A stretch of 14,847 bases of DNA from Thioalkalivibrio sp. Lineage in GTDB: Bacteria; Pseudomonadota; Gammaproteobacteria; Ectothiorhodospirales; Ectothiorhodospiraceae. The translations under genes were made by a program, and so were the position numbers. Location: contig PWGH01000153.1 in assembly GCA_003555285.1 (NCBI GenBank), positions 1 through 14,847 of the forward strand, written 5' to 3'. The first letter of the stretch is position 1. Every line of letters starts with the position of its first letter. Below are positions 8,049 through 12,948 of the stretch, one piece after another. Below the pieces are notes generated by a model. It was not told the origin of the DNA. It worked only from the letters and a program-made list of their open reading frames with translations, and searched no databases.

Positions 8049-9332
8049 ATGCTGTTCGCTCTAGGCATCAATCACAAGACGGCCCCGGTCCAGGTGCGCG
8101 AACGGCTGGCGGTCAATGACGTCCAGTTGGCGGAGGCGCTCAGTTCCCTGCATTCCGGAGTGCAGGTCCCCGAGGCCGCCATCCTCTCCACCTGCAACCG
8201 GACCGAGATCTATTTCCGCGAGGCCGACGATCACGGCGAGGATCGGGTACTGGACTGGCTCGGTGGGTTCCACGGCATCCGGCGCAGCGAGATCGAAGGC
8301 TACCTGTACCGTCATCACGACAACGAGGCGGTGCTGCACGCGCTGCGTGTGGCCTGCGGCCTCGACTCCCTGGTCCTCGGCGAACCCCAGATCCTGGGGC
8401 AGATGAAAATGGCCTACCAGCATGCCCATGCCGCTGGCACGCTGGGCTTGTCCCTGGAGCGCCTGTTCCAACATGCCTTCGCCACCGCAAAGGACGTCCG
8501 GACCTCGACCGCGATCGGCGCCAGCGCCGTCTCGGTGGCCTTTGCCGCGGTTTCGCTGGCACGCCAGATCTTCGGGGACCTGAAGCCGCTGACCGCCCTG
8601 GTGATCGGCGCCGGCGAAACCATCGAACTGGTGCTGCGCCACTTGTCCAGCCAGGGCATCGGGCACCTGATCGTCGCCAACCGCACGGTCGAGCGCGCGC
8701 ACACCATCGGTGATCGTTTCCAGGCCGAGCCCATCCCACTGACCGCCCTGCCCGACTACCTGCACCGGGCCGACATCGTGATCAGTTCCACCGCCGCCCC
8801 CCTGCCGATCCTGGGCAAGGGTGCGGTGGAGCGGGCAATCCGCAAGCGGCGTCACCGCCCGATCTTCATGGTCGATATCGCGGTCCCGCGCGACATCGAG
8901 CCGGAAGTGGCGGAACTCGAGGACGTCTATCTGTACACGGTCGACGACCTGCATGAGGTCATCAACGACAACATGGCCTCCCGCCAGGCAGCGGCCGAGC
9001 AGGCGGAACAGATCATCGCGACCCGCGCCGATGAATTCATGCGCTGGCTGCGTGCCCGCGATTCGGTAAATAGTATCCGCCGCCTGCGCGACCAGGCCTA
9101 TGACATTCGTCAGGAATCGCTGGCGCGCGCCGAGGCGCAGATCCGTGCCGGCCGCCCGGCCGGAGAGGTCATCCAGCAACTCGCCCACAGCCTGACCAAC
9201 CGGCTGATGCACGGCCCCTGCAAGACGCTGAACACCGCAGCCCACGACGGGGATACCGACCTGTTCCGCGCGGCTCACCGCCTGTTCTTGCTACCGGACG
9301 AGACGGGCCTGGATCCTCGGGATGATTCGTGA
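8049..9332 (+). CDS. hemA: Glutamyl-tRNA reductase
   Basis: HemA reduces glutamyl-tRNA(Glu) with NADPH to glutamate-1-semialdehyde, the first committed step of haem (and, where present, bacteriochlorophyll and cobalamin) synthesis by the C5 route. The 427-residue product shows the catalytic-domain motifs [10 protein letters not shown] (5-14), [10 protein letters not shown] with nucleophile Cys49, and [17 protein letters not shown]. An NADPH-binding domain follows ([56 protein letters not shown]), and then the C-terminal helical dimerisation domain. The ATG at 8049 gives the canonical N-terminus [13 protein letters not shown] but has no Shine-Dalgarno. The gene diverges from the TPR lipoprotein gene and heads hemA-prfA-prmC. 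The stop overlaps the prfA GTG (GTGA), implying translational coupling. Confidence 0.98.
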
Positions 9333-11383: not shown

Positions 11384-11785
11384 ATGGACACGACCCTCTG
11401 CGCCCGGGAACTGGTCTTCCGCGGTCCCCATCGAGATGCCGATCAGGCCCCGGCAGCCGCACTGTTGCTGGCGAATTCGCCGTTGGTGTCGGAGGTTTCC
11501 GTCACCGCCTGCAACCGGGTCCTGGTTCGGTACGATCTGCGCGAGCTCACCTTTGCCGAGATCGAGTCGGCCCTGGAGGAATTGGGCTTTCACATCGACA
11601 ACAGCGTGTTGACCCGCCTGCGCCGCGCCTATTACCTCTATTGCGAGGACACCCGCCGAGCCAACCTGAAGATCAACCCCAATTGCTTCGGCCAGTGTGC
11701 CCGCCGGGTCTTCGTGCGCGAGTACCAGAAACACCAGCACGGCTGCCGGGACCAGCGCCCCTCGCACTGGCGCGAATACCGGTAG
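11384..11785 (+). CDS. Small protein with HMA-like N-terminal half, function unknown
   Basis: I do not recognise a named family. The 133-residue protein appears to have two parts. Residues of about 8-70 have the alternating beta-alpha-beta-beta-alpha-beta pattern of a heavy-metal-associated ferredoxin fold (SEVSVTACNRVLVRYDLREL, then FAEIESALEELGFHI), but the metal-binding CxxC loop is absent. The C-terminal part is basic and rich in aromatics and potential ligands: Cys87 in YYLYCEDT, Cys101 and Cys105 in NPNCFGQCARR, His118, His120 and Cys121 in KHQHGCRD, ending in WREYR. It has no signal peptide or membrane segment and is probably cytosolic. The coding frame has third-position G/C bias like its neighbours and sits between prmC and moeB, both on the same strand. 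A metal- or cofactor-related role is only a guess from the Cys/His content. The ATG lacks a Shine-Dalgarno. Confidence 0.8.
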   Translation: MDTTLCARELVFRGPHRDADQAPAAALLLANSPLVSEVSVTACNRVLVRYDLRELTFAEIESALEELGFHIDNSVLTRLRRAYYLYCEDTRRANLKINPNCFGQCARRVFVREYQKHQHGCRDQRPSHWREYR

Positions 11786-11880
11786 CGGCGCGGAACGCCC
11801 TCGACCGCCGACCCGACCCACAGCCCGGTCATCCGGCGATGCCACGGCCGGGTGCAGATCGCGGCTGAATCCTCGGTGAC

Positions 11881-11956
11881 GGCTCGATGGGTTGGGGGTG
11901 CCTCCCGATTCTCGGTGCGGCTCGATGGGTTGGGATCGCCTCCCGATTCTCGGTGC
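11881..11956. repeat. 38-bp tandem direct repeat, two full units
   Basis: Units at 11881-11918 and 11919-11956 are identical except for three adjacent bases (GGT against ATC after GGCTCGATGGGTTGGG). The second half of each unit, CCTCCCGATTCTCGGTGC, includes the 12-bp tip of the adjoining inverted repeat (GATTCTCGGTGC). Unit two therefore overlaps the left arm of that element at 11945-11956. A decayed further half-unit precedes unit one. There are no spacers, so it is not a CRISPR. Confidence 0.9.
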
Positions 11957-12061
11957 GGGGGAGGACCTGTTGGCGGGACGCCGTGAATACATCCCTGTAG
12001 GCTTGACGGCAGCATCCCTGCTGCCGACACCCGCCAACAGGTCCTCCCCGCACCGAGAATC
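11945..12061. repeat. Palindromic element with 33/32-bp arms and two inner hairpins
   Basis: The left arm (11945-11977) and right arm (12030-12061) are perfect reverse complements apart from one extra G in the left run of Gs. They enclose 52 bp that hold two further hairpins (11988-11999 and 12007-12026), giving a junction-like fold on either strand. The element is 117 bp long, has no coding capacity, no visible target-site duplication and no transposase nearby. The size and structure suit a small non-autonomous mobile element (MITE-like) or a structured-RNA repeat. Whether it is dispersed in the genome cannot be told from one copy. Confidence 0.85.
11988..12026 (-). other. Twin GGA-loop hairpins, possible CsrA/RsmA-binding RNA
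   Basis: Read on the minus strand, the core contains CGGCAGC-AGGGAT-GCTGCCG (12026-12007, 7-bp stem, hexaloop) and then TACA-GGGA-TGTA (11999-11988). The second matches the known CsrA selection consensus RUACARGGAUGU at 11 of 12 positions (the leading R is C). The first shares AGGGAU with GGA in the loop. The two GGA triplets are 24 nt apart, compatible with bridging by one CsrA dimer. No minus-strand promoter is evident, so expression is unproven. Confidence 0.4.
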
Positions 12062-12162
12062 TGCGCTGTACCGGGGCGGACACGCTGTGCCGGTGGACAC
12101 GCCACTTTGGCGAACACCTGCGTTGTTGGAGGCTGCAAGCTCGCTCTGAATCGGGAAGAGAA

Positions 12163-12948
12163 ATGGACGAAGACGAATGGTTGTTGCGCTACAGCCGCCA
12201 GATTTTGCTGCCGGGCATCGGGACCGAGGGGCAGGAACGCTTGGCGGCGGCGCATGTGGTGGTGATGGGGCTTGGCGGGCTCGGCTCGCCGATCGCCACC
12301 TACTTGGCGGCGGGTGGTGTGGGCCACCTGACACTGGTCGATTTCGATCAAGTGGACTTGAGCAATCTGCAGCGCCAGATCCTGCACGGGCAGGCCGACA
12401 TCGGCCGAGCGAAGGTGGAATCGGCGGCCGAGAGTCTGGCGCGGCTGAATCCCCACTGCCGCGTCGACCGGATCGCGAGCCGCCTGGAACAGGGGCACCT
12501 GGAGGCTTTGTTGCGTCGGGCCGACCTGGTCCTGGACGGCACCGACAACTTCTCCAGCCGAGCCCTGATCAACCGGGCGGCGGTAGCCACCCGCACGCCG
12601 CTGGTCTCTGGGGCGGTGATCCGCTTCGAGGGTCAGGTGACCACCTTCGATCTTCGCGATCCCGACGCGGCCTGCTACCACTGCTTGTACGGGGAGGGGG
12701 ACGAACTCGGGGAGACCTGCAGCGAGTCGGGCGTACTGGCGAGCCTGCCGGGGATCATCGGCAGCCTGCAGGCCACCGAGGCGATGAAGCTGCTGATCGG
12801 GCTGCCGACCCTGGCCGGCCGCCTGCTGCTCGTGGATGCGCTGACCATGAGCTTTCGCACCTTGCGCCTGAGCCGCGATCCGAACTGCCCTGTGTGCGGC
12901 CCCGTCGACCAAACCCGCCGATCGCCGGCCCGGTCACGGGCTCAATAA
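12163..12948 (+). CDS. moeB: Molybdopterin-synthase adenylyltransferase (E1-like)
   Basis: This 261-residue E1-like enzyme most likely adenylates the C-terminal glycine of MoaD for sulfur transfer in molybdopterin synthesis. Features in order are RYSRQILLPGIG (9-20), nucleotide loop GLGGLGSP (36-43), DFDQVDLSNLQRQ with the conserved NLQRQ, Lys84, and DGTDN (125-129). Zinc-binding CxxC pairs are C171/C174 and C242/C245, and GETCSESG contains Cys186. The frame ends about 20 residues after the last zinc cysteine. There is no rhodanese domain. ThiF is the main alternative, as the two families are close; position next to prmC, as in pseudomonads, favours MoeB. No moaD or thiS is in the window. The ATG has GGAAGAG at good spacing. 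The last six codons and the TAA are part of a 17-bp hairpin, giving a low-complexity C-terminus. Confidence 0.92.
   Translation: MDEDEWLLRYSRQILLPGIGTEGQERLAAAHVVVMGLGGLGSPIATYLAAGGVGHLTLVDFDQVDLSNLQRQILHGQADIGRAKVESAAESLARLNPHCRVDRIASRLEQGHLEALLRRADLVLDGTDNFSSRALINRAAVATRTPLVSGAVIRFEGQVTTFDLRDPDAACYHCLYGEGDELGETCSESGVLASLPGIIGSLQATEAMKLLIGLPTLAGRLLLVDALTMSFRTLRLSRDPNCPVCGPVDQTRRSPARSRAQ

Follow-up and report, generated by a model that had tools for sequence, protein, structure and literature searches.

The 14,847-nt stretch of DNA analyzed here (the window) contains, at 11945 to 12061 on the minus strand, a near-perfect palindrome with a core and two arms, which was delimited by inverted-repeat search, folding, and family alignment. 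It belongs to a family of palindromic repeats that occupy intergenic sites in many Gammaproteobacteria. Across the family, the bases of the two hairpin loops are retained despite changes in the stems, the arms, and even the surrounding transposon ends, and the spacing between the loops is nearly fixed at 23 nt. The best explanation, to which we give about an even chance, is that this is a repeat family with twin ANGGAN loops that are read on the GGA strand, most likely by CsrA/RsmA, and that the element is a putative mobile docking module.

The arms of the window copy at 11945 to 11977 (3' arm of the GGA strand; inverted repeats and arm alignment) and 12030 to 12061 (5' arm of the GGA strand; inverted repeats), both annotated without strand, form 32 base pairs, interrupted by one gap of a single base. 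Hairpin 1 (12007 to 12026, minus strand; sequence and covariation) has a 7-bp GC stem, CGGCAGC/GCTGCCG, around the loop AGGGAT at 12014 to 12019. Hairpin 2 (11980 to 12002, minus strand; sequence, covariation, and loop count) consists of an inner part, TAC-AGGGAT-GTA, at 11988 to 11999 with the loop at 11991 to 11996, and of an enclosing frame, GCC...TTCAC-GGC, in which outer GCC/GGC pairs flank the one-sided bulge TTCAC (11983 to 11987, minus strand; family tail counts). A preliminary description of this DNA had reported two minus-strand hairpins with AGGGAU loops, and both are present, at 12007 to 12026 and 11988 to 11999; the distance of 24 nt that it gave between the GGA triplets is corrected here to 23 nt, start to start. 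The element lies between an open reading frame at 11384 to 11785 without a Pfam match and a ThiF-family gene at 12163 to 12948; both are on the plus strand, which places the GGA strand antisense to each of them. A sequence scan of 11780 to 12300 gave no match to a sigma-70-type promoter, in agreement with the earlier remark that no promoter is apparent, and no terminator-like site was found in the same region. Two tandem 38-bp repeats (11880 to 11955, plus strand; direct-repeat search) enter the left arm of the element, and the end of this left-flank repeat recurs, inverted, at the distal end of the arm at 12030 to 12061, as if fold-back copying of the flank had lengthened the palindrome.

The palindrome in the window folds with a z score of −10.28, and none of 200 shuffles was equally stable. 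The twin-hairpin pattern had zero matches in shuffled sequences, but it was devised after viewing the window and its absence there says little, so that the weight is carried by the family evidence. In the window copy, hairpin 2 is not part of the minimum-energy fold; its formation costs 0.2 kcal/mol and has a probability of 0.25. Among 373 other copies, identified with a finder that required the loop, hairpin 2 is within the minimum-energy fold in 90, and the median cost of forming it is 1.1 kcal/mol. The predicted hairpin 2 is supported by covariation, not by energy.

To describe the family, a pattern scan of genome_contigs for GCCTACANNNNNGTATTYACGGCG, in which the loop was left free, gave at least 119 stretches with 124 copies among the matches listed, and all 80 listed match titles belonged to Gammaproteobacteria, as judged by reading the names. 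A covariance model (R1), built from 62 rows and with a consensus that holds the loop, detected from 1 to at least 150 copies per genome in 16 genomes chosen as carriers. Fifteen of these had at least 21 copies, a number of dispersed copies typical of MITE- and REP-like repeats, three had at least 150, and one had a single copy. The laboratory methanotroph Methylotuvimicrobium buryatense 5G carries 150 copies or more. In a class-wide sample, for which we used stricter filters and scored at most 16 candidates per genome, 54 of 274 genomes had a model match. The presence of the family is patchy: in the family of G239, 18 of 39 genomes carry the element, at 1 to 40 copies each, and G239 itself lacks it. 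Of the genomes sampled, G239 is closest to the window as judged from one protein, which is 75% identical to the product of 8052 to 9332, taken here to be HemA. A plasmid search in distant mode gave weak chance pieces only, while a pattern scan of IMG/VR gave 10 stretches, 2 of which (L005 and L008) are copies by eye. The suggestion in the preliminary description that a dispersed repeat spreads twin CsrA-type sites is borne out to the extent that carrier genomes hold many copies and that the same twin loops recur family-wide.

We found the loop of hairpin 2 to be ANGGAN in 123 of the 124 copies among the matches listed in the genome_contigs scan, with the loop free. Using a finder in which loop and stem letters were both free, this loop was present in 255 of 257 distinct copies; this set comprises all fetched loci, part of which were fetched with R1 and its loop-holding consensus, which introduces a mild bias. 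The exceptions are L101 (AGGAAC) and L071, which resembles a chance palindrome. The fixed bases are A in 256, G in 257, G in 256, and A in 256 of the 257 copies, and at both N positions all four bases occur, with no clear covariation between the two. The alternation of fixed and free bases in loop 2 suggests that individual bases are read. In hairpin 1, scored with loop letters free, 158 of 216 copies have the exact ANGGAN hexaloop, 48 more have GGA in or at the loop, and 10 have something else. The commonest GGA-to-GGA spacing, in 224 of the 255 copies measured, is 23 nt, and the bulge of hairpin 2 is TTCAC in 152 and TTTAC in 82 of 257 copies. Among copies in Stenotrophomonas, counted in 63 of 71 rows after omission of 8 with larger indels, several of which have a broken hairpin 2, there is no substitution at the fixed bases of either loop, and one row is gapped there. 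In these rows, the N positions of loop 1 are nearly invariant (62 and 63 of 63 alike), and at the first N of loop 2, A occurs 19 times, G 17, and T 26. This position differs three ways among near-identical copies, as if it were unusually fast-changing.

The family core is 51 nt (27 + 24), and the best local alignment of the arms has a median length of 25 with 91% complementarity (113 copies including the window). In alignment A1, made of the window and 61 of 71 non-redundant rows, the arms and hairpin 1 covary, and none of 500 shuffles reached the covariation score, while 76 of 500 reached the count of pairs changed on both sides; the choice of rows is favorable, as 10 with a decayed or odd hairpin 1 were omitted (L019 twice, L024, L059, L066, L071, L083, L095, L106, and L107). 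Both stems of hairpin 2 covary in copies found by the model, and again none of 500 shuffles reached the score; in these 59 rows, which were aligned by the covariance model and lean toward it, pairing is 100% in the inner and 98.3% in the outer stem. The hairpin 2 stem changes from TAC/GTA (181 of 257 copies) to CCC/GGG (48), TCC/GGA (12), CAC/GTG (6), and TAT/ATA. Between copies in 2 of 9 genomes (G255 and G194), the outer arms are 0.45 to 0.46 identical, which is nearly random (random identity is 0.36 with a 95th percentile of 0.50), and yet the core is 0.89 alike and the arms of each copy still pair at 0.95 to 0.97. In the other seven genomes, identity between copies in the outer arms ranges from 0.60 to 0.98; this comparison of nine genomes used a finder that required the loop. 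Whether or not CsrA is involved, such an arrangement, in which the arms drift but stay complementary around a core kept base by base, is unusual and would need a reader. The preliminary description had allowed that homologous elements might change freely at the GGA or that the match might be incidental to palindrome structure. A check across the family revealed no such free change, with loop 2 kept as ANGGAN in nearly all copies as stems covary and arms drift, and the incidental origin is rejected by the family-wide conservation of the loop.

These observations make it very improbable that the family is a pure mobile parasite, whose loops appear conserved merely through the recency of the copies: copies are near-identical in Methylotuvimicrobium and Methylomonas, but the loops hold across lineages with changed stems, arms, and tails, and Stenotrophomonas copies that are nearly the same elsewhere vary at the first N of loop 2.

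The mismatches in the arms bear on which strand folds. In 90 distinct copies with arms reaching at least 14 of 20 pairs, we counted G.T 101 versus A.C 12, A.G 44 versus C.T 6, G.G 21 versus C.C 2, and A.A 10 versus T.T 5, and mismatches with G outnumber those with C in 63 of these copies, with the reverse in 4. The counts in 211 copies are similarly distributed (G.T 162 versus A.C 24, A.G 64 versus C.T 12, G.G 28 versus C.C 7, and A.A 15 versus T.T 4). Based on this asymmetry, the folding strand is probably the GGA strand, either as RNA or as single-stranded DNA, which agrees with the earlier claim that orientation matters.

The loop pattern of the family equals A/UCANGGANGU/A, which the accessible text of PMC5864733 and PMC6849547 reports to be optimal for RsmE, a homologue of CsrA, and the positions that vary in the family are the N positions of this optimum. 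The loops also have the trait of CsrA sites that ANGGA, ideally as CANGGANG, is in a hairpin loop. An A-U/U-A pair outside the C-G closing pair is present in hairpin 2 stems of the forms TAC/GTA (181/257) and CAC/GTG (6) and absent from CCC/GGG (48), TCC/GGA (12), and most copies of hairpin 1. A single dimer could span two CsrA-type loops whose separation is fixed. We infer that something reads the loop bases on the GGA strand and that the likeliest reader is CsrA/RsmA. Once the GGA strand is transcribed, one CsrA dimer would grip both loops, and the element would act as a mobile CsrA docking module, such that transcripts crossing it in the GGA sense would come under CsrA. With tens to more than 100 copies in many carrier genomes, the elements could also titrate CsrA. 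A bolder version, which we hold only tentatively, is that repeats in unrelated transposon backbones with a twin CsrA docking head would form a self-spreading CsrA sponge and target network of dozens or hundreds of intergenic sites, including those of YPAL. If the loops bind CsrA, a major posttranscriptional regulator of Gammaproteobacteria has a large, overlooked, and mobile set of sites, and this binding would explain the persistence of these repeats.

Several observations weigh against CsrA. The conserved bulge and the GCC/GGC pairs are not needed by CsrA, and the bulge is unexplained; hairpin 2 is outside the minimum-energy fold of the window copy, presence is patchy, and in Stenotrophomonas, loop 1 is almost constant at its N positions. 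Nor is there an orientation bias: copies in tandem gaps are sense to neighboring genes in 25 cases and antisense in 28, based on gene calls from a small ORF model rather than annotation and after 34 of 124 copies had been dropped (23 at an edge and 11 overlapping an ORF call). The family alignment has no conserved columns outside the arms and, hence, no conserved promoter, and the Rfam small RNA that matches some copies (Ysr224; see below) is annotated on the CCC strand. In favor of CsrA, the csrA gene was detected in 50 of 54 sampled carriers, and G239 has it too; csrA was also detected in 185 of 220 non-carriers, however, a difference that is not clear, so that the comparison of carriers with non-carriers decides nothing. 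In four carriers (G024, G085, G116, and G212), we saw no csrA; in three of these, the alaS contig stops just downstream of alaS, and G116 has a short flank downstream of alaS without a csrA-like frame. The regular expression used for csrA in alaS flanks was positive for only one of seven loci, the control L219, and missed G089, which has csrA elsewhere.

The preliminary description had also proposed that the element might work as a small CsrA-binding RNA, and this part is not supported for the window copy, which gave no sign of being an expressed small RNA. Its position antisense to both neighbors, the lack of a promoter match, and the absence of a sense bias among the copies argue against a simple sponge RNA, and the window copy may be silent. 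The element resembles sponge RNAs of the CsrB/RsmY type, which have repeated GGA in hairpin loops (PMC4383904, accessible text), but differs from them in having two sites per unit, long arms, and many copies per genome, and in lacking an Rfam match at gathering score and a promoter match in the window.

An alternative that we regard as possible, though doubtful, is that single-stranded DNA of the GGA strand folds and that a recombinase, replication protein, or nucleoid protein recognizes its loops in moving or using the element, with a coincidental match to CsrA. The absence of an orientation preference relative to genes, the conserved extra bulge, and the patchy, high-copy distribution all fit such reading of DNA. 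So does the mismatch bias, which is present in every gene-orientation class, weakest with the GGA strand antisense to both neighbors (16 versus 5), and does not single out the G.T wobble: the ratios GT:AC, AG:CT, and GG:CC are all skewed, and A.A exceeds T.T. As the skew is not specific to G.T, DNA folding or strand-biased mutation fits as well as RNA. Alignments of two orthologous Stenotrophomonas sites, in which one element type is swapped for another while the flanks are shared, are likewise in agreement with the DNA-level alternative. Among 367 orthologous Stenotrophomonas pairs, identity was at least 0.89 in 136, 0.70 to 0.89 in 99, and below 0.70 in 132 (ungapped identities, with L225 doubling L230). 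This spread does not separate the orthologous copies into two clean identity classes, which leaves the site alignments as the support for an exchange of types. Speaking against a reader of DNA, agreement with the CsrA loop by chance, including which positions vary, is unlikely, and the core rides in unrelated backbones. In Methylotuvimicrobium, it is inside a unit with the ends TATACCC (left, 9 of 10) and GGGTATA (right, 10 of 10), in Methylomonas inside a unit with other ends, and in Yersinia inside YPAL; the core is, therefore, not simply a transposase end. Moreover, we identified 56 matches to Y1 transposase in 20 genomes, and at none of 30 loci, representing 30 of these matches, was there a copy in the retrieved flanks, while the carrier G255 had no Y1 match. 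The 0 of 30 loci with an adjoining copy also speaks against a RAYT-mobilized REP. The duplication finder gave no target duplication consistent across copies, and the G239 contig ends before the site matching the window copy and offers no empty site for this comparison.

We consider it unlikely that the element is an mRNA 3'-end stabilizer, i.e., a long hairpin that is transcribed with the upstream gene in either sense and protects messages, as suggested for YPAL, with loops unused by CsrA. In favor of this, divergent gaps hold 12 of 90 copies (no baseline computed), many copies are near stop codons, and several Ysr224 copies are expressed in Yersinia ruckeri according to the available text of PMC12112432. 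A stabilizer leaves the base-by-base conservation of the loops and the strand asymmetry unaccounted for.

The Yersinia branch of the family is known. The sequence of Y. pestis RU-2 (YPAL, 168 nt), as printed in Table 1b of PMC2759123, shares the core of the family, including both CANGGANG loops, and like the family, YPAL is dispersed, intergenic, and, in the text available, described as mobile. The available text of PMC2229807 reports mobility with duplications of 3 to 26 bp and targets near dyad symmetry, and that of PMC2267715 places YPAL among the Y. pestis stem-loop families. By eye, the ends of the 168-nt unit are absent from the flanks of the window copy, and they are also absent from the Methylotuvimicrobium and Methylomonas copies. 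Two Yersinia-type copies match Rfam RF02770 (Ysr224) above the gathering score (L005, 133.9 bits; L069, 126.5 bits), and the score of the window is 26.9 bits (cut-off, 70); as noted above, Ysr224 is annotated on the strand opposite to the GGA strand. In the part of PMC9029176 available, Ysr224 appears in a list of the 20 bacterial small RNAs with the highest prevalence. Since this RNA corresponds to the complementary strand of a repeat that is dispersed, small-RNA prevalence counts may count repeats. No Rfam family reached the gathering score in the window at 11700 to 12300. Of six weak matches (E up to 5, below gathering), four were to microRNA families via the long hairpin, and only Ysr224 is real. 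REP/BIME and ERIC are also short palindromic intergenic repeats, and the ends TATACCC...GGGTATA of the Methylotuvimicrobium unit resemble ERIC/RU-1 as printed in PMC2759123; the element differs from REP/BIME and ERIC in its core and in the lack of a Y1 transposase beside copies at the 30 loci. In the literature searched, mostly without subscription papers (including the 2006 YPAL paper), none of the matches listed joins the element to CsrA, and no class-wide description was found among them. Within the reach of these searches, neither the family beyond Yersinia nor its twin CsrA-type loops seem to have been described before.

Beyond single dispersed copies, some loci have compound arrangements. 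Within the Stenotrophomonas regions, which were chosen because paired copies already showed there, 14 copies form seven divergent pairs; in L225, L226, L227, L228, and L229, the members of a pair are separated by approximately 250 to 320 bp, and this interval includes other short palindromes. In orthologous copies in L241 and L252, both near 1511, another short palindrome is inside the loop of hairpin 1. Tandem arrays with a unit of approximately 160 to 180 bp, and accordingly many GGA loops in a row, are present at L025:3118-3738 and G363:C2:663769-664169, and L104:4885-5799 is a mixed cluster with copies in both orientations.
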